Assembly (NCBI RefSeq): GCF_900182555.1
Contig: NZ_FXTH01000011.1
Span: forward strand, 1 to 64,000
Direction of reading: 5' to 3'
DNA: 64,000 nucleotides
DNA from: Fodinibius sediminis
Lineage (GTDB): Bacteria > Bacteroidota > Rhodothermia > Balneolales > Balneolaceae
Shown: one piece after another, positions 5,658-19,090 of the stretch
How positions within the stretch are numbered: the stretch's first letter is position 1
Layout of the letters: every line of letters starts with the position of its first letter
Position numbers and translations under genes: made by a program
The notes under the pieces: generated by a model
Databases searched by the model: none
Seen by the model: the letters and a program-made list of their open reading frames with translations, nothing else
What the model was told of the DNA's origin: nothing

Positions 5658-6431
5658 TCAGTCTCCAAACAGTCCCTTTTGGGTCCCTGGAATCTCGTCC
5701 AGGTCAATGGGATGGTCTACGGGCTTAATGAGCTCTTCGTCATTCTGGCCATAGTCCAAACCCTTGCTTACCTGCCACACCTCCATATCGTCTTCCGGGT
5801 AGGGGACAAAGATGTTCTGATCAAAATAATCTTCGGGGTTCAACGTCTTATCCAGCCAAAAATCATAATCCTCTTTGCGCAGGATGGTCGGCATTCGTTC
5901 TTTTGAATTATGAATTTTTCGGACCACAGGGTTTGGATCGGTGGTGATAATGGAGAAGGATCCTATGGTTTGTCCGGACTCTTTATCCACCCAGTGGTCG
6001 TACAAGCCTGCCAGCCCAAATGCCTGCTGGCTTGACAGGGTAAAGTAATAGGGGATTTTATCCGTGGGCTTCTTGCCACCCGGAATGGAAACTTCCTTGT
6101 CCAGGTGATGGTGCTCATAAAATCCGGCCACTGGTACAATACACCGCTTGCTCTTGAACAGGGGACGCCAAAGGTTGCTGCTCATGAGTTTATCATCCCG
6201 TGCATTCATGGTGCTGTATTGCAACTTTCTATCTTTAGACCAGCTTGGTATGAGTCCAAATTCATGGATGGTGACCTCCCTTTCACCATCTTCGCCCGTT
6301 TTAATAATGAAGGATGGATTAGTGGGCCGGGTATTCCTGCGGCCTTCAAAATTCTTGGGGATATTAAGCTTAGCCCCAAAAAGGTATCCGAGTTTATCAG
6401 GATGAATGTGGCTGTCAAAAAAGGTACACAT
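5658..6431 (-). CDS. SRAP (YedK/HMCES) abasic-site shielding protein
   Basis: The 257-residue product is a SOS-response-associated peptidase family protein. Members crosslink to abasic sites in single-stranded DNA through the alpha-amine of Cys2 and so protect them. Cys2 follows the initiator Met, as the family requires. Asn76 in TMNARDD, Glu106 in VAGFYEHH and His174 in KIHNSKERMP match the YedK active residues in order and spacing. The length is typical. The upstream small gene ends 6 bp before it, and the Y-family polymerase lies upstream on the same strand, so this reads as part of a DNA-damage tolerance unit. Confidence 0.93.
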   Translation of the reverse strand: MCTFFDSHIHPDKLGYLFGAKLNIPKNFEGRRNTRPTNPSFIIKTGEDGEREVTIHEFGLIPSWSKDRKLQYSTMNARDDKLMSSNLWRPLFKSKRCIVPVAGFYEHHHLDKEVSIPGGKKPTDKIPYYFTLSSQQAFGLAGLYDHWVDKESGQTIGSFSIITTDPNPVVRKIHNSKERMPTILRKEDYDFWLDKTLNPEDYFDQNIFVPYPEDDMEVWQVSKGLDYGQNDEELIKPVDHPIDLDEIPGTQKGLFGD

Positions 6432-6995: not shown

Positions 6996-8336
6996 TTACG
7001 AGCGTTCCAGAAAATGGGTTTTCCCTTGAACTGAGTCCATGATGGAAGCTCGGGTGATGGTTTGGTTGCCAAAAGTGTTGTTAATAGCATCCTGCACCAG
7101 GCAAAATTGTCGTTCCTGGGGGTTTTCCCGGAAGAAGAGTTCCTGCTGGTTGGAATGGTCTACCCCAACAGTACCTACGCCAATGCCCCGGAGGGCATAA
7201 CCGCTGTTCAGCAGTTGTTTCATACGTGGGGCAGCCCCCTTCATACACTCATGATGGATGTAGCCGTCCAGGTTGGTATAGCCCTCAGTATTAAACCGAA
7301 AGCTGACGCCCTTGTGCTCCCGGTGCTGGATACGAAGGTAACAGAAGTACTGCCGGGCCCGGAGGTTATATCCGCGCATCCGGTAGCAAAGCCGGGAGAT
7401 CCCTTTCATGATTTCTCCGCTAATGCAGGCGGGATCGGTGGACTGACTGCTGAAGGTGTGCATATAGTTCAGCTGCTCTTTGGGGCTCAGTTGTTCCGTG
7501 AGTACTTTGGCGCGGTCTTTCCCGGAGATCATCTCATACATGATTTTGCCAAAGTAGGCGCCAAACAGCTGCTGGAAGATGGGATAGCCCCGGTCAATGC
7601 CTTCAGATATAGTATTAAGACCTTCCTTTTGTAGTTTTTCATACCGCTTGCGGCCTATTCCCCAGACTTCATCCAAGGGCAGGGGGCCCAGCAAGTCTTT
7701 GGCTTCCTGTTGGTCCAGTACCAAGGTTAATCCATCCGGCTTGTCAAGGTCACTGGCCAGTTTGCTATAGGTTTTGGAATAGGAGATGCCAATAGAGCAT
7801 ACCAGCCCGATCTCCTGGTAGATCAGGTTACGGAGGGATTGGCCATACTGCTGAATCTCAGCGCGGGAGTGATCCTTTAGGAAATTGATGTCCAGGAAAT
7901 ACTCATCCATGGAGTATTTCTCCATTGTAGGCGCAAAATCGTTGAGCACATCCTCGATCAGGCTGCTGATTCCCTTGTACTTTTCGTAATCAGCCTGCAG
8001 GCCGATGATATACGGGCAGATCTGCTCGGCTTCATAGGCGCTCATGGCGGTCTTGATACCCAGGGCACGAGCCTCATAGGAGCTGGTAGCGACTATGCCC
8101 CGGGGAATCCCTTGTTCGCCCTTGTACCAGCCCCCAATATAGATGGGTAGGCCGTGAAGCTTGTAACACTGCTGTTCCACCTGGGCATAGAAGCAATTCA
8201 TGTCCAAATGCAGGTACAACCGCTCCTTCACAGAGGTATGCTGCATATCCCGGCTCACGCACCGGTAATCGGTGATCTTGTGTACATCTTCATCTGGGCT
8301 GTAGGTTCCGGGATTAATGGAAGGTAGTTTAGGCAT
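6996..8336 (-). CDS. Y-family translesion DNA polymerase (DinB/UmuC group)
   Basis: The 446-residue enzyme copies past damaged template bases. The palm motifs are intact: LHLDMNCFYAQVE with metal-binding Asp45, and YSMDEYFLD with Asp144 and Glu145. Further family segments follow (IGISYSKTYSKLASDLDKP, then a helix-hairpin-helix WGIGRKRYEKL). The first 35 residues before the palm are an unusual extension. The gene is divergent from a small plus-strand gene, and their 79 bp shared upstream region holds a direct repeat also found before lexA. With LexA encoded next door this recalls the umuC/lexA-type SOS arrangement. A plain dinB or umuC label would be a guess. Confidence 0.93.
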   Translation of the reverse strand: MPKLPSINPGTYSPDEDVHKITDYRCVSRDMQHTSVKERLYLHLDMNCFYAQVEQQCYKLHGLPIYIGGWYKGEQGIPRGIVATSSYEARALGIKTAMSAYEAEQICPYIIGLQADYEKYKGISSLIEDVLNDFAPTMEKYSMDEYFLDINFLKDHSRAEIQQYGQSLRNLIYQEIGLVCSIGISYSKTYSKLASDLDKPDGLTLVLDQQEAKDLLGPLPLDEVWGIGRKRYEKLQKEGLNTISEGIDRGYPIFQQLFGAYFGKIMYEMISGKDRAKVLTEQLSPKEQLNYMHTFSSQSTDPACISGEIMKGISRLCYRMRGYNLRARQYFCYLRIQHREHKGVSFRFNTEGYTNLDGYIHHECMKGAAPRMKQLLNSGYALRGIGVGTVGVDHSNQQELFFRENPQERQFCLVQDAINNTFGNQTITRASIMDSVQGKTHFLERS

Positions 8337-8378
8337 GAATAATAAGTTGAAAATAATGGCTTTTATTGCTTAATATAC

Positions 8379-8397
8379 ATGAAAATAAATATGAAAA
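8379..8397 (+). promoter_or_regulatory. Candidate SOS operator, direct repeat ATGAAAA-N5-ATGAAAA
   Basis: ATGAAAA at 8379-8385 and 8391-8397 with a 5 bp spacer lie 43 bp upstream of the polymerase start and 18 bp upstream of the small divergent gene. The same repeat with the same spacer precedes lexA at 9429-9447. A LexA target is the natural reading; binding is inference. Confidence 0.6.
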
Positions 8398-8415
8398 ACA
8401 ATAAATGTATTAGCC

Positions 8416-8760
8416 ATGCAAACCGTGCTCAAGGAAAAGGTGAATGTAGATGCCGTCTTCCGCTCCTTTAAAGAGGATAATACCCGTAACCGGAGTGGGT
8501 GGGAGCATAAACGCATTCAGCCCCGCTATGTCAAACGAAAGAAGGGGGAAGTACTAAAGGTCCGGGAAGTGAGAAGATCATATGTCCAGCGTAAAGGCAA
8601 GCGCGTACAGGTCCATTTTGTTATTCACTGTGAGGAGGACCGGTATTTTCATCTGGTCTATGACTCCGATAAGATTATCTGGATCCTGTTGTACGAATTT
8701 GACGACCAGATGCTCTTTGATGAGCGAAAGGTTGACGTTGACATTCAATGGAAGGGCTAG
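8416..8760 (+). CDS. Hypothetical basic protein divergent from the polymerase, 114 residues
   Basis: The product is small and strongly basic in its first 60 residues (RYVKRKKGEVLKVREVRR), then becomes a beta-rich acidic C-terminal half ending in DVDIQWKG. It could bind nucleic acid, but no known domain is recognisable. It shares a divergent control region and the candidate SOS operator with the Y-family polymerase, and its stop overlaps that of lexA by 4 bases on the opposite strand. Being boxed in by lexA and the polymerase, it is a good candidate for an uncharacterised damage-inducible protein. Confidence 0.65.
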   Translation: MQTVLKEKVNVDAVFRSFKEDNTRNRSGWEHKRIQPRYVKRKKGEVLKVREVRRSYVQRKGKRVQVHFVIHCEEDRYFHLVYDSDKIIWILLYEFDDQMLFDERKVDVDIQWKG

Positions 8761-9404
8761 GCGGATCTAAAGATTAGGCCCCAGTTGCCGCCGGTCTTCC
8801 ATGCTTTACCTACATAGGTTCCAATGACTGTGATCTCTTCCCATTCTTTCGGGGTAATGGTAATGGAATCATAGGCGGGATTCTCCGGGTGCAGGATAAC
8901 GCCACCCGAGGTACGCTCAATGGTTTTCAGGGTAGTCTCTCCACGGTAGTCAATAGCTCCAATTTCCCCATCTCCGGGAGACCGTGGATCTATGATAATG
9001 TAGTCGCCATCCCGAATGTCCGCATCTATCATACTCTCGCCATCGACAATCAAAGCAAAATAGTGATCCGACTTGGCAGGATGAATTTCTACCGGCAGGT
9101 GCCCCAGGTTCTCACTGATAGCCTCATGCATGGCTCCAGCGGTAATGCGCCCCTTTACCGGTATGCCCGGATAAAAGCCTTTGAGTTGTGAGCGCTTGGT
9201 GGGATGAATGGTATAGTTCCCCCTTCCTTCTTTGGACAGGTAATTTTTCTTTTCCAAGGCCCGCAGGTGCTGGAAGATGCTGTTGGTGGAACTGTAGTCC
9301 AGAGCCTCCTGCATGTCCCCGTAGGAAGGGAACTGGTCATGGTCTTCCAGATAGCCGAGGAGGTACTCCCAAACCCCTTGTTGTTTGTCGGTCAGTTCTT
9401 TCAT
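8757..9404 (-). CDS. lexA: LexA-type repressor with S24 self-cleavage domain
   Basis: The 215-residue protein has an N-terminal winged helix (LTDKQQGVWEYLLGYLEDHD at residues 4-23 and onward) and a C-terminal S24 peptidase fold. The Ala89-Gly90 cleavage pair in RITAGAMHE, Ser124 in GESMID and Lys160 in TTLKTIE match the LexA catalytic set, with a Ser-to-cleavage-site distance of 35 as in E. coli LexA. RecA-stimulated autocleavage would induce the neighbouring genes. The gene has its own copy of the ATGAAAA direct repeat 25 bp upstream, suggesting autoregulation. UmuD is the alternative, but the intact DNA-binding domain favours LexA. Confidence 0.92.
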   Translation of the reverse strand: MKELTDKQQGVWEYLLGYLEDHDQFPSYGDMQEALDYSSTNSIFQHLRALEKKNYLSKEGRGNYTIHPTKRSQLKGFYPGIPVKGRITAGAMHEAISENLGHLPVEIHPAKSDHYFALIVDGESMIDADIRDGDYIIIDPRSPGDGEIGAIDYRGETTLKTIERTSGGVILHPENPAYDSITITPKEWEEITVIGTYVGKAWKTGGNWGLIFRSA

Positions 9405-9428
9405 AAGAGCTAATTATACAAAAATAGC

Positions 9429-9447
9429 ATGAAAAAATATATGAAAA
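9429..9447 (+). promoter_or_regulatory. Candidate LexA operator upstream of lexA
   Basis: ATGAAAA at 9429-9435 and 9441-9447, spacer AATAT. The repeat unit, spacing and strand are identical to the site between the polymerase and its divergent gene. Confidence 0.6.
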
Positions 9448-9845: not shown

Positions 9846-11321
9846 CTACTCATCGAGTTCATCCATAATCTGCCTGAAGCTTTCCAGTCCGGCCTCTAAG
9901 TTTTCTACAATGTCACCGGCTAATACTTCCGGTTCCGGAAGATTCTCCAAGTCAGTCAGACTATCATCCTTGATCCAGGTAATATCGAGAGAGGTCTTAT
10001 CCCGGTTGGTAACCTCCTCATAGGTGTATTTACGCCATCTGCCATCCTTGTTATCCTCTGACCATGTTTGTTCCCGCTTATGTCGTTTGCCAGGCTTATA
10101 GCACTGTACGAAAGGTTTCAAGTCCTCATAGGTCATCGGCTTTTGCTTGAGTGTGTGGTGGACATTGGTGCGGTAGTCATAGAACCATATCTCTTTGGTC
10201 TGGGCCTCCTTGGAAGCAGGTTTAGTATCGAAGAAGAGGACATTCGCCTTAACGCCATGTGCATAGAAGATACCGGTAGGCAGGCGCAGAATGGTATGCA
10301 GATCGGTGGTTTGTAAGAGCTTCTTCCTAACGGTCTCACCAGAGCCGCCTTCAAATAGGACATTATCAGGCACTACCACTGCTGCCTGACCATTATTTTT
10401 AAGCAGTGTTCGGATATGCTGCAAAAAGTTGAGCTGCTTGTTGGAGCTTGTGGTCCAGAAGTCCTGTCGGTTGTAGGTCAGCTTCTCCTTACTCTGGCTA
10501 CCATCCTCATTGGTGATGGTAATGCTGCTTTTCTTGCCAAAAGGCGGATTAGCCAGTACATAGTCAAATCGGTCTCTTGGGTCGGATATTAAACTATCTT
10601 CTCGTTCAATGGGTGGCTTGGAGGTAAGATCGCCTATGTTGTGGAGGAATAGGTTCATCAGGCACATACGCGCCGTATTAGCGACAATCTCCCACCCTTT
10701 AAAAGTATCGTACTTTAAAAATTCTTTTTGGGCCTTGTCGAGCTCGTAATTCTCTAATATGTAATCATAAGCGGCCAGGAAGAAACCTCCCGTACCACAG
10801 GCCGGGTCTCCGATTGTTTTCTCTGGTTTTGGAGCTACACACTCCACCATTGCTTTAATCAAGGGACGTGGGGTGAAGTACTGACCGGCTCCGCTTTTGG
10901 TATCTTCGGCATTCTTCTCCAATAGCCCTTCATAAATATCGCCTTTTACATCTGGGCCGAGCATGACCCAATCTTCGCTGTCAATCATCTGGATAAGCTT
11001 GTACAATTTAGCTGGATCAGTAACCTTATTTTGGGCTTTCACAAATATTTGCCCAATCATTCCTTCTTTTTGTCCCAGTTCACGTAGTAGCTTTATGTAG
11101 TGGGTCTCCAGATCGGTACCGCTTTTACTGGTCAGGCTATTCCAGTTGTACTCTTTAGGAATATGGGTTTCCCGGTTATAGGGCGGTTGACTATACTCCC
11201 AAGCCATTTTCAAGAACAGGAGATAAGTGATCTGCTCCAGGTAATCCCCGTAGCCAACCCCATCATCCCTAAGTGTATCGCAAAAATTCCAAACCTTCTG
11301 TATAATTCCGTTTGTCGTCAT
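9846..11321 (-). CDS. hsdM: Type I restriction-modification N6-adenine methyltransferase subunit
   Basis: The 491-residue protein has the HsdM N-terminal helical domain, then the SAM-binding motif DPACGTGGF at residues 172-180 and the catalytic NPPF at 258-261. It methylates adenine in the host recognition sequence as part of the M2S complex. It is the last gene of a six-gene minus-strand operon. Its ATG overlaps the stop of the preceding nuclease-like gene by 4 bases, so the two are translationally coupled. Confidence 0.95.
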   Translation of the reverse strand: MTTNGIIQKVWNFCDTLRDDGVGYGDYLEQITYLLFLKMAWEYSQPPYNRETHIPKEYNWNSLTSKSGTDLETHYIKLLRELGQKEGMIGQIFVKAQNKVTDPAKLYKLIQMIDSEDWVMLGPDVKGDIYEGLLEKNAEDTKSGAGQYFTPRPLIKAMVECVAPKPEKTIGDPACGTGGFFLAAYDYILENYELDKAQKEFLKYDTFKGWEIVANTARMCLMNLFLHNIGDLTSKPPIEREDSLISDPRDRFDYVLANPPFGKKSSITITNEDGSQSKEKLTYNRQDFWTTSSNKQLNFLQHIRTLLKNNGQAAVVVPDNVLFEGGSGETVRKKLLQTTDLHTILRLPTGIFYAHGVKANVLFFDTKPASKEAQTKEIWFYDYRTNVHHTLKQKPMTYEDLKPFVQCYKPGKRHKREQTWSEDNKDGRWRKYTYEEVTNRDKTSLDITWIKDDSLTDLENLPEPEVLAGDIVENLEAGLESFRQIMDELDE

Positions 11322-12982
11322 ATTAACTTAATACCTACTTGTTCTATAATATTTTTTCTAATTAGATCGAAGTTGATATAGCCAAATTTCAATGATAATC
11401 TTTCATTTATATGTTCTATATATTTTTTGATTTCCCTATCAGGATGAATATTTGATACTAAGTAAAGTTCATCAACCTGTTCATTATCAGGGAAGAAGTT
11501 ATAATCAATTAGCTGGCCTAACCCTACATTAAGAGAAGTTTTTAGTGAATTATAGCTCTTTACTTCAAAGATAATTTGTTTCCCTCCATGTACCATATAA
11601 ATATCAAGCTTACGACCGTCTTCAGTGGGGTGCTCTACCTCTAAAATATTTGGATTTAATCTATTATAGAGCCAGTTGCTGAATGATACCTGAATCTGAT
11701 CATGTACATTTTTAAATTCCTTTTTTTCTGTCCTTGTGCTACGAGTAATTTTGGGTTTAAAATCTTTGGGTGAATATTTTTTGTTACCACCTTTTATAGC
11801 ATATGATTTCTCATTCTTGACACTTGACAACCGGTCTCGAATTGCTTTATAACGATCAGAATTTATGGCCTGATATTCTTCCTCCTTCATTGGAACTAAT
11901 TCATCGTGTAGGCTTTCAATTTGGTCTGGACGGAACCGAACATTAAACAAAGAGGTAGGATCATCAATAAACTGATTATTTTTAACAAAAGTGTTCGGAT
12001 CTAAATCGTGCGGTATCAAATCTTTTTTTCTCTGGTCTAACCACCCCTCTGTGTCGAATCTTTCATATGCATATCTACTAATTTCTTTACCAACTATCTC
12101 AATATCATTAATAGCCCCCACCCAATACCGTTGTTTATTTATCCCATCAAATGTATAGAGTTTTACATCTCTCTTTGTGAGACTAAAAGTACTTTTACCG
12201 TTACTATGGAATGGTTGCATGAATCCGTATAAATATCCATCAAGCATCTTTGATTTATCAAAAAGCCACTCCTCAAATCCAAATCCGTACTTTCCCTCAT
12301 GGGTATCCTTATTTTTACTTTTACCTTCTCTTCCGGATGGTAATTCCCAACCATTAGTATTCCATGTTAAGCGAATAATTCTTGTATCCTTGGGCTCAAA
12401 ATAATTATTAAGTACAACCCCCTCGTAAACGGGAATTAATTTATCGAACGTCGATACTATTTCTAATAGTTGATCATCATTTAGGTTGTAATCATCTTGT
12501 TCAAAATAATTGCCAATGAAGATGAAATTACCTTCTCTAATAAATTTATCCTCAATCGGAACGACTTTTTCAAAAACTGTAGCTCCAAATTTATCCTTTT
12601 CATTTATCCAATAGGTTAAATCTTCAAAAATTGTTGGATAGTCATTTATAAACTTGTTAAATCTTTTAATTAGTTTGCCTAATTTATCTGTTGGATTTGG
12701 AATGCTTTGAGTTGCTTTTAAAGAAAATGCAACACCGTATCTCAATACATTGCGTATTCCTAAAGTTTGAATGCCTATATTAAATTGCAACTCATCCAAG
12801 CCCCCCCAGTGAAATGTATATCCATCTCTTTTAAGAGATGGAGATTTATTAAATATTTTATGGTCTCTATGTTTGTAATTTAAGCAGTGCGCACGCCTTC
12901 TTTGAAGTCCCCCAAATGGATGGAGATCATTTTGTTCTAAAATGTCTTCGATTGCTTCGGCAAGATTTATTATGGTATTCAT
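11318..12982 (-). CDS. PD-(D/E)XK nuclease-like protein inserted between hsdS and hsdM
   Basis: The 554-residue protein is not a standard Hsd subunit. Its C-terminal 130 residues carry a PD-(D/E)XK signature: Glu448/Glu450 in ILEVEH, Asp460 in KLDIYMV, Glu473 and Lys475 in IFEVKS, then GQLIDY in the position where family members often have a Gln. The first 400 residues are a large unassigned region with several aromatic-rich strands. The gene overlaps hsdM by 4 bases and follows hsdS by 4 bp, so it is integral to the operon. It may be a second restriction activity or an accessory defence nuclease. It is AT-rich compared with hsdR. Confidence 0.7.
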   Translation of the reverse strand: MNTIINLAEAIEDILEQNDLHPFGGLQRRRAHCLNYKHRDHKIFNKSPSLKRDGYTFHWGGLDELQFNIGIQTLGIRNVLRYGVAFSLKATQSIPNPTDKLGKLIKRFNKFINDYPTIFEDLTYWINEKDKFGATVFEKVVPIEDKFIREGNFIFIGNYFEQDDYNLNDDQLLEIVSTFDKLIPVYEGVVLNNYFEPKDTRIIRLTWNTNGWELPSGREGKSKNKDTHEGKYGFGFEEWLFDKSKMLDGYLYGFMQPFHSNGKSTFSLTKRDVKLYTFDGINKQRYWVGAINDIEIVGKEISRYAYERFDTEGWLDQRKKDLIPHDLDPNTFVKNNQFIDDPTSLFNVRFRPDQIESLHDELVPMKEEEYQAINSDRYKAIRDRLSSVKNEKSYAIKGGNKKYSPKDFKPKITRSTRTEKKEFKNVHDQIQVSFSNWLYNRLNPNILEVEHPTEDGRKLDIYMVHGGKQIIFEVKSYNSLKTSLNVGLGQLIDYNFFPDNEQVDELYLVSNIHPDREIKKYIEHINERLSLKFGYINFDLIRKNIIEQVGIKLI

Positions 12983-12986
12983 ATTC

Positions 12987-14417
12987 CTAACTAATTAGCT
13001 TCCCTTCAAAAGCTTTTTTGAGAATGCTTTGGCGTAGAGCTTTTGCTTTTTGAAGTTCTTGCTCAATTGTTTTTTCAGTCTGATCCACAATAGACAATCG
13101 GGAGTCAATCATATCTGCCACTTTTTTCTGCTCTTGTAAACATGTGAATGGTAATGGATAACCTGAAAGTTTTGTCCCATTTATGTTAGACTGATTAACT
13201 CCATCCGTTTTGACCTTATTACCATAATTTTGAGCTTCATAGCTATTCAGGTAGTAGGTCAAATACCGAGCATCTATTATTGTATTAATTTGATTTAACC
13301 GTATTAAATAACCAGCAAAAATTGCTTTCTTTTTTCCTTTATAAAGAGCTGTTTTCCCAACCAGTTCTGGACTATTAGTTCTATTAAACAACACATCCCC
13401 TGGCTGAAGTAAATACTTCTCAATTTCTTCTGGATCATTTGAATAGACTAAATCGTCCCATACAAACTTCCCATCTTGCATATTTCCCATTCTAAGAACT
13501 GGCATATCACCCGAATCCTCAGATTTTTGAGATGTCCCATACTCCACCCTTGAAACTGTATCACTAATCCTAATCCATTCCCAATTATTTGGTAATTTGG
13601 GTAAACTATCTAATTCTTCATCGAGAGGATCAAATGTTCTCCCTTTCATGGGTTTACGTGGCTTCTTACCGGGCTCTCCCTGTTCTTCCCACTCATCAAC
13701 TTCTTGTTCCCATTCTTTTAGTTGCTTCTGTCGATATTCTTCTTGCTCTTTTTCAATATGTCGTTTCAACTCCTCCGGGGTCGGCAAATCCTCCTGTTGC
13801 TCCCGCCACTGCTTGGTGAATTTCCCTTCAAAGGCGGCTTTGAGGACGGACTGCTTGTAGGTTTCGAGCTGCTGCTTCACTTTTTTGAGGTTTTGGATTC
13901 CGTTATCCAGGTCGGAGAAGAGTTCTTCTATTTTTTCGACGATACGGTGTTGTAATTTAAGTGGAGGAACTAAAATCTCAGTATTTTCAAATTTCTTTTT
14001 AGTCACATGGACCATTCCAGATCCATGTGACTTTGCATATAAATCCCTTATTATTCTTTTCAAATAGTGAAAAAGAAAACGATTATCGATAAAATCTCTT
14101 GGGACTACCTTAAAGATATGCTGATTTAGCCATGCGTTTCCCCCTTTCCAGATGTAAGCATCCAAAGAAGCTGACCAAGCAAATAACAGATCCCCACTCT
14201 GCACCAAATATCTATCCTTAAAATCTTTAGTAGAATAATTATAACTTGCCTCAGGATCGTTCAAATTCTGTATCCTAATTATTGGCAGTCCTTTATTCTC
14301 CCATTCTTCAGGCTTAAATGCTCTTCCATTGAGATATTCAGCTACCTCCCCCAAAGTGTATTTTTCCCATCCCTTGATCTTTTCTTCTGTAATTTCAATT
14401 GTCTCAACTTCACTCAT
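12987..14417 (-). CDS. hsdS: Type I restriction-modification specificity subunit
   Basis: The 476-residue protein has the two-fold HsdS layout. A first target-recognition domain occupies about residues 15-165, a central conserved helix near 165-215 ends in LKAAFEGKFTKQW, a charged linker covers 215-275, a second target-recognition domain lies at about 280-430, and a terminal helix ends in RQSILKKAFEGKL. The two AFEGK segments are the conserved spacer repeats. It sets the bipartite DNA target for HsdM and HsdR. The charged linker, rich in Glu, Lys and Gln, is long for the family. Confidence 0.93.
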   Translation of the reverse strand: MSEVETIEITEEKIKGWEKYTLGEVAEYLNGRAFKPEEWENKGLPIIRIQNLNDPEASYNYSTKDFKDRYLVQSGDLLFAWSASLDAYIWKGGNAWLNQHIFKVVPRDFIDNRFLFHYLKRIIRDLYAKSHGSGMVHVTKKKFENTEILVPPLKLQHRIVEKIEELFSDLDNGIQNLKKVKQQLETYKQSVLKAAFEGKFTKQWREQQEDLPTPEELKRHIEKEQEEYRQKQLKEWEQEVDEWEEQGEPGKKPRKPMKGRTFDPLDEELDSLPKLPNNWEWIRISDTVSRVEYGTSQKSEDSGDMPVLRMGNMQDGKFVWDDLVYSNDPEEIEKYLLQPGDVLFNRTNSPELVGKTALYKGKKKAIFAGYLIRLNQINTIIDARYLTYYLNSYEAQNYGNKVKTDGVNQSNINGTKLSGYPLPFTCLQEQKKVADMIDSRLSIVDQTEKTIEQELQKAKALRQSILKKAFEGKLIS

Positions 14418-14425
14418 ATTATATC

Positions 14426-15160
14426 CTATACTACTGTAAATTCTTGTGGCATATCCGGCATGGCATCATAGGTACGCCCATCCAACTCACGACCAGCCTT
14501 TTTCTTATTACGTCCACCCCATTGTTTAAAAAAGAATGGCACATCGTCTTTTTCACACTGCCGTTTAATATCTATAACCCATTCCGGCTTCATAGGCCGT
14601 GGATTGTGGCCACTTTCGCCTCCAACAATGACCCATTCTATATTATCCAGTGGCATATTAGGTAGTGGTCCTATGAGGGGCTCACAAGAAAGGAATTTAA
14701 CATGTGCTTTTGTTTTACGCAGTGTATTTATACGGTGCATCACATCTTCATTTTCGACAGATACACCCATCCAGATGTTGTCAGCCCAATCAAGGTAACC
14801 GACTTGGTCATACTCTAATAATACTTCGGGCCGCTTGGTCAATATCTGAAAAACGTGGCGCCGGTTATCATTCATAACCTTGAATACGTCCTGTATGAAC
14901 TCGACCGGAATTTTTTCATGAAATAGATCGCTCATGGAATTGACAAATACCACTCGGGACTTCTTCCAGGAATAGGGCTCATCCAGCGTATCGGGATGTG
15001 TTGTTACCTCAAACTCATTGCGGTATTTTTCTACGCCCATTGCTTTCAGGCGCTTGGCCATTACTTCTGCATAACAGAACTTACAGCCCTGAGATACCTT
15101 GTTGCACCCGGTTACGGGATTCCAAGTCATCTCGGTCCATTCAATGGATGATTGTGCCAT
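14426..15160 (-). CDS. Gp37/Gp68-type (DUF5131) three-Cys-motif protein
   Basis: The 244-residue protein starts with the SSIEWTEMTWNPVTGC signature of the phage Gp37/Gp68 family and has Cys19, Cys26 and Cys29 (C-x6-C-x2-C), the three-Cys motif that gives its partner family its name. The cluster and later VGGESG resemble a radical-SAM fold, although the spacing is not the classic C-x3-C-x2-C. The next gene upstream encodes the expected partner TcmP. Both sit between hsdR and hsdS, so they share one transcript with the restriction genes. The biochemical activity is not established. Confidence 0.85.
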   Translation of the reverse strand: MAQSSIEWTEMTWNPVTGCNKVSQGCKFCYAEVMAKRLKAMGVEKYRNEFEVTTHPDTLDEPYSWKKSRVVFVNSMSDLFHEKIPVEFIQDVFKVMNDNRRHVFQILTKRPEVLLEYDQVGYLDWADNIWMGVSVENEDVMHRINTLRKTKAHVKFLSCEPLIGPLPNMPLDNIEWVIVGGESGHNPRPMKPEWVIDIKRQCEKDDVPFFFKQWGGRNKKKAGRELDGRTYDAMPDMPQEFTVV

Positions 15161-15171
15161 GTTGCGCCTAA

Positions 15172-16281
15172 TTATACTTTATAGTTAACTATATTCTTCT
15201 TTTTGAAGACATTATCATAAGTAATACCTGGTGTTCTTCCTTCATAGTCAATTATACCGTCCTTTTTCAACATCCTTAAGTACTTATTTGCAATCTGTCG
15301 TGAATTTCCAGTTTCGTAAGTAAATTGTAAAGCCTCTTTGTTATTGGTAATTGAACCTTCAACTATTTTTTCTTCTAATTCCTTTTTGAATTTTTCAATT
15401 TTAGTCAATTTTTCATTGTCAAATAAGTCAGTTTGCCTTTTTGAAGTGTCATCATCAATGTCAAAGTTAGCTTCACCATTCTGTTTATTTTTCTTCCATG
15501 ATATATATAGGAATTTATCAACTGCGAGGGGATGACTTGCTCCAAATATTATACCGTAAATATTTGCACCCTTTTTGATTGAAAATGGATGCAGCTTTAG
15601 CTGACTGTCTAAAGACAAGCTTTCCCTTAACTTGTCAACTATAACCCGGTGAATATTTGCCCATTCTATTTCATTTAGCTCCTTTTTTGAGAATTTTAGC
15701 ACATTCTGGAATTCATCAGTCATGCCAAACCTTTTGAAATAGGATGAAGAACCAAAAAACAAAAAATCTGTGGTATTTAACTTTTCAAGTTCTGACAAAT
15801 ATTGATCTGATATAAACTTAATACCATTCTGATCCAAGAATACCAAGGATGGATAATTTTTCATTATTGGTAGTAACTCATTTAAAAGTGACCCAGCATC
15901 CTTGTTATAGAATTTAAGTTCTAAGCAATACTTAAATTTTTCATGCTCATCGACAAAATTTTTACAGTTTTCTTTAAGCATTTCAAATTTTTTTTGATCA
16001 CTTTTATTTGGCTCAAATTCATTGAGATGTAAGGTTATTTGTGTTTTTTTGTTAAGAATATTACCAAGGTGATCAACAATCTTTTTTAAAATTCGAATAG
16101 GGCTCCCAGCTATCCCATTCACATCATATCCCGGTCCGGCAAACAAATCAAAAATATGAATTTGTTGTATCCCACTCATTACAAATGGTGGTATCCAAGC
16201 TTCGGCATAATCCTCGAATATCTCTAACTTAGAAAGAGTGGCCTCATCGAAAGGCTCAAGATGCAAATCTTTATATCCCAT
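15172..16281 (-). CDS. tcmP: Three-Cys-motif partner protein TcmP
   Basis: The 369-residue protein shows the TcmP pattern: an N-terminal region with IHIFDLFAGPGYD (a SAM-methyltransferase-like motif I, about residues 42-54), then SLVFLDQNGIKF, the phenylalanine-rich FLFFGSSSYFKRF, and a C-terminal winged-helix-like domain with GNSRQIANKYLRMLKKDG. TcmP genes occur beside the three-Cys Gp37/Gp68 protein, as here. The Rossmann-type motif suggests a nucleotide or SAM cofactor. Its role in a type I restriction operon is unknown to me. It is AT-rich relative to hsdR, hinting at separate acquisition. Confidence 0.85.
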   Translation of the reverse strand: MGYKDLHLEPFDEATLSKLEIFEDYAEAWIPPFVMSGIQQIHIFDLFAGPGYDVNGIAGSPIRILKKIVDHLGNILNKKTQITLHLNEFEPNKSDQKKFEMLKENCKNFVDEHEKFKYCLELKFYNKDAGSLLNELLPIMKNYPSLVFLDQNGIKFISDQYLSELEKLNTTDFLFFGSSSYFKRFGMTDEFQNVLKFSKKELNEIEWANIHRVIVDKLRESLSLDSQLKLHPFSIKKGANIYGIIFGASHPLAVDKFLYISWKKNKQNGEANFDIDDDTSKRQTDLFDNEKLTKIEKFKKELEEKIVEGSITNNKEALQFTYETGNSRQIANKYLRMLKKDGIIDYEGRTPGITYDNVFKKKNIVNYKV

Positions 16282-16345
16282 TAAGGTTTCTCCTGATATT
16301 TAATTAAGGCCGGTGACAACACTATGACATCCCCTATTGTGCATT

Positions 16346-19090
16346 TTAAGCCACCAACTCTTCATTCATCTCTTCAATAATTTCATCCATCTCATCCCCA
16401 AAGACTTTATACATCCCCCCGATGCCTCCCTTGGCATCAAACGGGGCATAGTCCAGATCATCCCTAGTGAAGTGTATGGAAGTAGCGATATGATCCTTGA
16501 TCATGTGCAGCCATTCCATCTGCTCTTCATTGAATTTCAGGGCACCGGCCTGTTTATCGAAGACCCATTCCTGGAAGTTCCGGTTTACCGTGGAATCAAA
16601 CGGTCGGAGCTCCTCATCCAGTCCACACACCTTTCGGATCAAGGCCACCAAAGCCGTTAATTCCGATTTTGGATTTCTGCCTTCATACTTCTCCAGCTGG
16701 GAATAGCCCTGCCAAACATGCATCGGTGCCAGATTGGGTTTTTCCTGCCGGATCTTGTCGGCCAGTTCCTTTATCATCTGGTAGGTAACCTCTTTCAACC
16801 GATGGGGCTGATCGTAAAAGATGGATAAGGCTGTAATTTCATCCTTATGCTCTTTGATATAGGCCTTAAAATCTTCAACAAGTGTTTCAGACTGCTGTTT
16901 CTGTTCTTTGTCCCACCCAGCGTAGGTGACCTCATCAATATTGACCACATCAAGAATCTGCTCGTGGGTCTTCTTCGCCTGGTCCAGAAACTCAATCAGT
17001 TCCCCCGTAAAATTGGAGGCGGCCTTCTCCCGTAACTTTCTCTTTGCCGCTTCCTCATCCCCTCCGGTTCCTCCTTCTTCCTGCGGCTTACCGGCCAATT
17101 CCTGGACTTTATCGGGATTGGTTGCATCCAGCAACTCGTTGGTAACAGTGTTAATGGATTTCCCGGTCACCTCCTTGAAATGCTCTTTCTCTCTGCCATC
17201 AAGCAGTTTATTTAGTCGTGCCAGGCGATTGGCTGCCGAATCAAAAAAGTCTTCGTCCGCACTGCCCATCATAATGTGATGCAATAGATCCTTAAAAGGA
17301 ACAGTGCGGTTTCGCTCTAAGGGACGGCTGTCGGTTTTCAGACTCTTGGTAACCCCAACCGCATCCACAACCACAAAATGGGTCTTATCCGTTTTTGCGG
17401 AGGGCGTGACCTTTTCCAGATCCTCTTTCTGCAGGGTACGGGTACCCCTTCCTTTCATCTGTTCAAAGTAATTCCGGCTCTTCACATCCCGCATGAACAT
17501 CAGACACTCAATGGGTTTCACGTCGGTACCGGTAGCAATCATATCCACCGTTACGGCAATGCGGGGATAAAATTCATTGCGGAACTGTTGCAATACCGAT
17601 TTGGGATCTTCTTCGGTCTTATAGGTCACCTTTTTACAAAAATCATTGCCCTCGGCAAACTCTTCACGGACCGTTTTAATAATATCATCACAATGACTGT
17701 CCGTCTTGGCAAAAATCAGTGTTTTGGGCACTTCCTCCCGATGCGGGAAAATAGTCGGTAGGCTGTCTCGATATGTTTTAATGATATTGCGGATCTGGCT
17801 GGGATTGACGACATCTTTATCCAGCTGTTTGGCCGTATAATCCACATCTTCATCCAACTGCTCCCAACGCTTCTTGCGGGTGAGCTTCTCCCGCTTCTCA
17901 ACATACTCCTTTGCCTTAATTTCCTTGCCATTCTTGGAAATCTCCGTTTCAATCGTAAAGACATCGTACCCAACGTTCACACCATCTGCTACAGCCTGCT
18001 CGTGTTTATATTCGCTGACCACGTTCTCTTTGAAATACCCATAGGTGCGCTTATCCGGGGTGGCAGTCAGCCCCACCTGAAAGGCGTCAAAATAGTCTAA
18101 TACTTGCTTCCATAAATTATAGATAGAGCGATGGCACTCATCTATAACGATGAAATCGAAGAACTCAATCGGTACCTCTTCATTGTACTCAACCGGAACC
18201 GGTTCCTTCGGCTGGTACTGCTCGTTGGGATTCTCTTCCTCACTACTTTCTTCCAGCTCATCTCCCTGCAGGATGGAGTACATTCGTTGTATGGTGCTGA
18301 TACATACCTTGCTATCAGGTGCGATGTAGCTGGACCGCAGTAATTGAACTGGATAGATCTCGGTGAACTTTCGATTTTCCCCGGTGGGCGTATACTTCAT
18401 AAACTCCTGTTCGGCCTGTTCCCCCAGGTTTTTGGTATCCACCAGAAAGAGAATGCGCTTGGCATCGGCATGTTTCAGCAAGCGGTAAATCGAGGTAATG
18501 GCCGTAAACGTCTTACCAGCACCGGTAGCCATCTGAATCAAAGCACGTGGCCGACCCTCCTTAAAGGATTGCTCCAGATTTCTAATCGCACTGATCTGGC
18601 AATCCCGCAGGCCTTTGGTTTGAAGGTCCGGAATCTCCTGTAGGCGGGCTCTTAGTGTCTTGTCCTTTTCCATCCATCCCTGCAACGTTTCCGGGCGGTG
18701 AAAGGAAAATACTTCACGGGACCTCGGTTTGGGGTCTCTTAAGTCGGTAAATCGGGTTATTTCCCCATTGCTTTCATAAATGAAGGGGAGGGATGCTTGT
18801 CCAATATACTGTAGATCGCTTGCCGAATACCGGTTAGACTGAGCCTCAGCCTGTAGAAGTCGGTGTCCTTCTTCCTCTCGTTTTGCTTCTATAATGGCTG
18901 CGGGTCGTTTTTGTACAAAAGAAATGTAATCTGCAGGACCGGAGTCGGTATGGTACTCACGGATAGTGACCCCATCTGATACAGAAAAATCTATGCTTTC
19001 CTTATTTTGAATATCCCAACCTGACTGTTTAAGTCTCTCATCAATTTTTTTTCTGGCCTCTTGTTCAGGCGTAAGGTTATTACTACTCAT
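16346..19090 (-). CDS. hsdR: Type I restriction endonuclease subunit with SF2 motor
   Basis: The 914-residue protein is the first gene of the operon. The N-terminal nuclease domain has Asp54 and Glu68-x-Lys70 in AIIEAKR with a downstream Gln-rich helix (AEAQSNRYS). The SF2 motor has Walker A in MATGAGKTFTA near residue 190, a DECH box in VIDECHRS near 320, motif III GLTATP and motif VI in MKGRGTRTL. The C-terminal third fits the EcoEI-type HsdR end that docks on the methyltransferase. It translocates and cuts unmodified DNA. All motifs are intact, so the system looks functional. Confidence 0.94.
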   Translation of the reverse strand: MSSNNLTPEQEARKKIDERLKQSGWDIQNKESIDFSVSDGVTIREYHTDSGPADYISFVQKRPAAIIEAKREEEGHRLLQAEAQSNRYSASDLQYIGQASLPFIYESNGEITRFTDLRDPKPRSREVFSFHRPETLQGWMEKDKTLRARLQEIPDLQTKGLRDCQISAIRNLEQSFKEGRPRALIQMATGAGKTFTAITSIYRLLKHADAKRILFLVDTKNLGEQAEQEFMKYTPTGENRKFTEIYPVQLLRSSYIAPDSKVCISTIQRMYSILQGDELEESSEEENPNEQYQPKEPVPVEYNEEVPIEFFDFIVIDECHRSIYNLWKQVLDYFDAFQVGLTATPDKRTYGYFKENVVSEYKHEQAVADGVNVGYDVFTIETEISKNGKEIKAKEYVEKREKLTRKKRWEQLDEDVDYTAKQLDKDVVNPSQIRNIIKTYRDSLPTIFPHREEVPKTLIFAKTDSHCDDIIKTVREEFAEGNDFCKKVTYKTEEDPKSVLQQFRNEFYPRIAVTVDMIATGTDVKPIECLMFMRDVKSRNYFEQMKGRGTRTLQKEDLEKVTPSAKTDKTHFVVVDAVGVTKSLKTDSRPLERNRTVPFKDLLHHIMMGSADEDFFDSAANRLARLNKLLDGREKEHFKEVTGKSINTVTNELLDATNPDKVQELAGKPQEEGGTGGDEEAAKRKLREKAASNFTGELIEFLDQAKKTHEQILDVVNIDEVTYAGWDKEQKQQSETLVEDFKAYIKEHKDEITALSIFYDQPHRLKEVTYQMIKELADKIRQEKPNLAPMHVWQGYSQLEKYEGRNPKSELTALVALIRKVCGLDEELRPFDSTVNRNFQEWVFDKQAGALKFNEEQMEWLHMIKDHIATSIHFTRDDLDYAPFDAKGGIGGMYKVFGDEMDEIIEEMNEELVA

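Follow-up and report, generated by a model that had tools for sequence, protein, structure and literature searches.

The 64,000-nucleotide stretch analysed here (positions 1 to 64,000 of contig NZ_FXTH01000011.1 of the salt-loving bacterium Fodinibius sediminis; 'the window') contains a three-gene block of lexA (hereafter lexA1), a Y-family DNA polymerase gene and a small gene for a protein of 114 amino acids (aa), with the direct repeat ATGAAAA-N5-ATGAAAA in both of its control regions (Table 1). Sequence comparison makes it very probable, in our view, that both boxes serve as operators for the LexA encoded at 8757-9404, which would use them to repress lexA1 itself as well as the divergent promoter between the polymerase and the ImuB-C-like 114-aa gene. 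The observations from which the initial annotation had proposed such an operator are confirmed: both copies are exact and lie on the + strand, one at 8379-8397 between the starts of the polymerase (8336, - strand) and the 114-aa gene (8416, + strand), the other at 9429-9447, 25 bp upstream of the lexA1 start (9404, - strand), and these two intergenic regions are the only control regions of the block, lexA1 and the 114-aa gene overlapping by 4 bp at their 3' ends. The repeat is longer than first described: on the lexA1 strand it spans 22 bp as TTTTCATRTnTTTTTTCATRT, a direct repeat with a period of 12 bp. With up to two mismatches the window holds four matches to ATGAAAA-N5-ATGAAAA against 1.4 expected, a count reached in none of 100 shuffles; with a matrix of the box, the two boxes score 28.7 and 27.5 bits and every other site in the window 9.3 bits or less. 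The 4.43-Mb genome has three exact copies, the third of which, lying across the start codon of a gene for a LacI-type regulator, is probably due to chance, because ATGAAAA is common as a gene start.

Conservation across the genus argues strongly for this assignment. We compared 12 Fodinibius genomes (~45 Mb), using patterns rather than matrices for genome-wide scans. All 12 carry lexA1, and in all of them (13 genes) the box precedes it at -40 to -44, in diverged form in genomes G009 and G012; the window LexA shares 75-82% identity with its counterparts in Fodinibius salsisoli, F. roseus, F. halophilus and Aliifodinibius salipaludis. Alignment of the lexA1 promoters yields the consensus tTTTCATGTnTTTTTTCATgTn; the column profile of the box correlates with itself at 0.95 when shifted by 12 and at no more than 0.14 at other shifts (best palindrome 0.54), and the lexA1 box is therefore a true direct repeat. 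A matrix built from lexA promoters of the other genomes, with the window genome left out, finds both window boxes (21.8 bits each, p=0.002), and such leave-one-genome-out matrices detect the box in 12 of the 13 lexA1 promoters at p <=0.006, that of G009 being degenerate. Trained on lexA promoters, the same matrices also find the box in the small-gene/polymerase promoter of all seven lexA1-type cassettes tested in Fodinibius, window included, and in one from another genus (G037), with p values of 0.002-0.004 across these small/polymerase promoters. On the basis of shuffles, genus-wide pattern counts and leave-one-genome-out matrices we reject a chance origin of the boxes.

The pattern counts further suggest that the box serves few other genes. 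Allowing two mismatches, the 12 genomes yield 35 matches, and a reversed-pattern control 26. Every match with no more than one mismatch (12 of 12) either precedes lexA1 or falls in the small-gene/polymerase intergenic region, as do four with two mismatches, and in G019 two overlapping two-mismatch matches lie ahead of a decayed lexA1 remnant; the remaining 17 do not exceed the 26 of the control, and those inspected are inside genes or before unrelated genes. Specific matches being limited to lexA1 and small/polymerase promoters, the box therefore marks the lexA1 cassette and little else. Elsewhere the motif occurs at the chance rate only, and close relatives keep it before orthologous lexA genes, so that neither of the two outcomes named beforehand as able to refute the proposal was observed. 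The decayed lexA1 remnant (L199, contig G019:C12 near 39819) keeps an intact, doubled operator.

The suppositions that the motif is wholly new and that direct-repeat LexA boxes are mainly alphaproteobacterial are not supported: a Balneolota LexA has been reported to bind the direct repeat TTACACATATTTTWTACATA in vitro, with a regulon of lexA, recA, translesion polymerases, a helicase, a radical SAM gene and SRAP (PMC7739468, 2020). The two systems share the phylum, canonical LexA domains, a direct repeat before lexA and translesion polymerases, and a CAT core. However, the published motif has a period of 11 and the half-site ACACAT, whereas the Fodinibius box has a period of 12 and the half-site TTTCATRT, with TTTCAT in place of ACACAT. 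The lexA1 box works like the published motif yet is a different motif; half-site likeness and protein homology suggest that it is a diverged form of that repeat. A search of the window genome for the ancestral motif TTACACATATTTTWTACATA gave, at best, a single site with three mismatches, and a literature search found no paper naming both LexA and Fodinibius.

A further difference concerns recA, which belongs to the published regulon but lacks the box in Fodinibius. In other Balneolaceae genera the published motif precedes lexA (period 11, correlation 0.87) and, in most of 32 genomes, recA (17 at p<0.02), with many further recA promoters of these genomes visibly sharing TACATATATTGAACATA; none of the 12 Fodinibius recA promoters has either the ancestral motif or the lexA1 box. 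The wider regulon for which the initial annotation had suggested a motif search did not emerge, since the genome-wide box matches inspected included no further recognisable repair-gene promoter. It could be argued that weaker sites give LexA1 control of a wider SOS regulon, as degenerate sites escape pattern searches. However, the lexA1 matrix scores in none of the 12 Fodinibius recA promoters (p >=0.06), and the window-genome matches with three mismatches are mostly within genes or unrelated, and we regard such hidden sites as rather unlikely. New here is a predicted lexA1 regulon essentially reduced to its own cassette, with recA outside it. Also new is the loss from Fodinibius of both the LexA box before recA and the usual lexA locus of the family: lexA in other genera mostly keeps one neighbourhood, beside an rplU-like gene (named by eye from sequence), Fodinibius lexA1 is found in several different neighbourhoods, and in a tree the lexA1 clade is set apart from the ancestral group (support 99/99). 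The simplest history would be that the ancestral LexA and its regulon were lost and a diverged, cassette-linked LexA persisted.

A palindrome, TGACACTAYGTTGTCA, lies ~72 bp before recA (L035, L127-L137) and is kept in all 12 Fodinibius genomes; a looser form occurs in many other Balneolaceae, and the window genome has only one exact copy. A second regulator of recA may act at this palindrome, with TGACACTATGTTGTCA as the candidate element for its binding.

LexA1 is not the only LexA in these genomes. A second cassette, whose LexA is ~40% identical to LexA1, is frequent in Fodinibius, and in those of G009, G010, G015 and G017, as well as in genome G034 of another genus, both promoters share a palindrome instead, TATGTAC-N4-GTACATA or TATGTGT-N4-ACACATA. 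The half-site of the latter, ATGTGT/ACACAT, is that of the ancestral direct repeat, reversed. LexA paralogs with palindromic boxes were seen at L079, L080, L083, L084, L085 and L102, all except L102 in Fodinibius. The window genome has a second cassette of its own on contig C13 (L032:2926-5317), ordered lexA–small gene–polymerase, with TAGTATYATTTTATATA in both promoters, unlike the window box; identity to the window cassette is 39% for LexA, 36% for the small protein and 66% for the polymerase. A third S24 repressor, on contig C20 (L033:3154-3846), has a phage-type helix-turn-helix (HTH), and its gene is preceded by a TACACTGTTAAGTGTA-like palindrome. Within most cassettes the element best common to both promoters is the cassette's own box, which differs between paralogs, and recognition helices differ as well: SSTNSIFQHLRAL in window lexA1, SPNSVTQNIQAL in the ancestral type and SANSSVQYHRAL in the palindrome type. 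The cassettes would thus appear to be orthogonal in operator binding, and direct-repeat and palindromic LexA specificities, as predicted from these sites, coexist within one genus, a finding that is new.

With three S24 repressor-like proteins encoded in the window genome, the boxes might in principle be bound not by LexA1 but by the second LexA (C13), the HTH-S24 protein (C20) or a shared global factor. We think this quite improbable: the box tracks lexA1, being present in every Fodinibius with lexA1 and at the lexA1 remnant, and the C13 cassette and the C20 gene have a shared element and a different palindrome of their own, respectively. Still less credible is a general promoter element (a -35-like region) or an A/T-rich coincidence, an idea favoured by the position of the box directly upstream of a TATAAT-like element in an A/T-rich region, but one that we rejected because such an element is expected before many genes, whereas the 22-bp repeat is confined in the 12 genomes to lexA1 and small/polymerase promoters (the rest being at the control rate) and is recovered there by the leave-one-genome-out matrices. 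Several points nevertheless weigh against assigning the boxes to LexA1: the lexA1 boxes of G009 and G012 are degenerate (8.6 and 15.2 bits); the box region is rich in A/T runs, as promoters are; the 2020 motif has a period of 11, so that its relation to the box is one we infer; and binding, repression, cleavage and induction by LexA1 are deduced from sequence. Conservation in lexA promoters, sharing with the polymerase/small-gene promoter and a chance rate elsewhere nonetheless favour LexA1 operators.

The lexA1 product has the features of a canonical LexA: a winged helix-turn-helix (wHTH) domain (PF01726, E=4.4e-10, 39.6 bits against a cut-off of 23.7), an S24 peptidase domain (PF00717, E=7.9e-23), and an Ala-Gly cleavage site and Ser/Lys dyad that align with E. 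coli LexA and solved LexA structures; its score against the NCBIfam equivalog TIGR00498 is slightly under the cut-off (107.9 bits versus 110.95). A LexA dimer would bind the two TTTCATRT half-sites, 12 bp apart, and so repress lexA1, which has a predicted operator in its own promoter, together with the divergent polymerase/ImuB-C-like promoter. Repression likely works by blocking access of RNA polymerase, because the box lies just 5' of the conserved TATAAT-like element before lexA. Upon DNA damage, RecA filaments on single-stranded DNA would trigger LexA to cleave itself at the Ala-Gly bond. Joint release of lexA1, the polymerase and the ImuB-C-like protein would follow, turning on the translesion module. 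The 114-aa gene, already nominated as damage-inducible, is predicted to be so because it has a common operator with the polymerase.

Table 1. Genes and predicted LexA sites of the lexA1 cassette (positions in the window)
Feature	Position	Strand	Remarks
SRAP gene (YedK/HMCES-type)	5658..6431	-	same strand as polymerase, downstream
Y-family DNA polymerase, DinB-like	6996..8336	-	
Predicted operator common to divergent polymerase and ImuB-C-like genes, TTTTCATATTTATTTTCATGTA	8376..8397	-	predicted LexA site
114-aa gene, beta-rich, probable stand-alone ImuB-C	8416..8760	+	divergent pair with polymerase
lexA1	8757..9404	-	LexA wHTH (PF01726) and S24 peptidase (PF00717)
Predicted lexA1 operator TTTTCATATATTTTTTCATGCT	9426..9447	-	direct repeat TTTTCAT, period 12

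The 114-aa protein, at first taken to be of unknown kind, is probably a stand-alone ImuB-C that likely serves the polymerase as an accessory subunit. At most of the Balneolota loci identified, its family adjoins a Y-family polymerase, often with SRAP, and its domain occurs there singly or in a two-domain, 203-aa form. The family profile gives a match (E=1.9e-4) to the small protein encoded between lexA and polY on a Geobacter plasmid, which is called ImuB-C by that position; with a Pelobacter homologue added, hhalign gives E=7e-6 and a probability of 84.5% over 80 columns against the 84-column Geobacter + Pelobacter profile, and the score of the Geobacter sequence alone was reached by none of 203 unrelated open reading frames and none of 150 shuffles. 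The model of the protein is almost all-beta (pLDDT 79.5), and in the family W89 is invariant and R76 nearly so. The beta-rich make-up, the conserved C-terminal Trp and the positively charged residues agree with descriptions of ImuB-C, and with the Geobacter profile match therefore make a stand-alone ImuB-C probable. The family did not match the C-terminus of the single ImuB compared, from Manganitrophus; the protein was assigned no family from Pfam, NCBIfam, PHROGs or PADLOC; and a fold search with its model turned up no clear relative (Foldseek best E 0.32, VIA-align best Z 5.1). Weak hits to DUF6504 (best E 0.02, five of 23 members) were not relied on, and a plasmid search for the small protein found none.

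Cassettes of this general kind are known. The Geobacter operon lexA–imuB-C–polY (PMC3765255, PMC6511836) likewise brings together in one block LexA, a small ImuB-C that stands alone and an active polymerase of the Y family, but it is a single co-directional operon whose LexA motif is palindromic, GGTT-N10-AACC (PMC8565304), whereas the Fodinibius block has convergent and divergent genes and two direct-repeat boxes. Mutagenesis cassettes such as lexA-imuA-imuB-dnaE2 and the Deinococcus lexA-imuY-imuB-C-dnaE2 (PMC8072749) also carry their own LexA, and more than one copy can coexist per genome; unlike these, the Fodinibius block is without a dnaE2 or imuA gene and its polymerase is DinB-like. 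The non-canonical LexA of the sister phylum Bacteroidetes similarly controls SOS genes and shows duplication tied to motif change, but has a CI-like HTH and binds the palindromes GGA-N5-TCC or CTAA-N5-TTAG, whereas LexA1 has the canonical PF01726 wHTH; a model of LexA duplication, divergence and loss has already been proposed (PMC8565304).

LexA is known for changes of binding site in evolution, and Fodinibius appears to have been caught mid-change, with LexA paralogs of direct-repeat and palindromic operators and different recognition helices in the same genus and in some cases the same genome. The switch from direct repeat to palindrome is thereby open to direct testing, and we predict a translesion cassette inducible via LexA, with recA outside LexA control. 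A fuller scenario, which we offer tentatively as possible, is that the ancestral chromosomal LexA was lost from Fodinibius and that damage-induced mutagenesis is run by several self-contained, moving LexA–ImuB-C–polymerase cassettes, with non-cross-reacting operators of their own that flipped between direct repeat and palindrome on a related half-site, recA being under another regulator at TGACA-N6-TGTCA.

Among neighbouring genes, SRAP immediately follows the polymerase gene in two further cassettes, and the SRAP gene of the window might be co-regulated with the cassette. On the other side, at 9846-19090, is a type I restriction-modification operon (hsdM, hsdS, hsdR) in which hsdS and hsdR flank a DUF5131 gene and its PDC-M30A partner, and which also has a gene for a 554-aa protein of no known family (11318-12982). 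In F. roseus (L037), a relative of hsdM is also near the lexA1 cassette.
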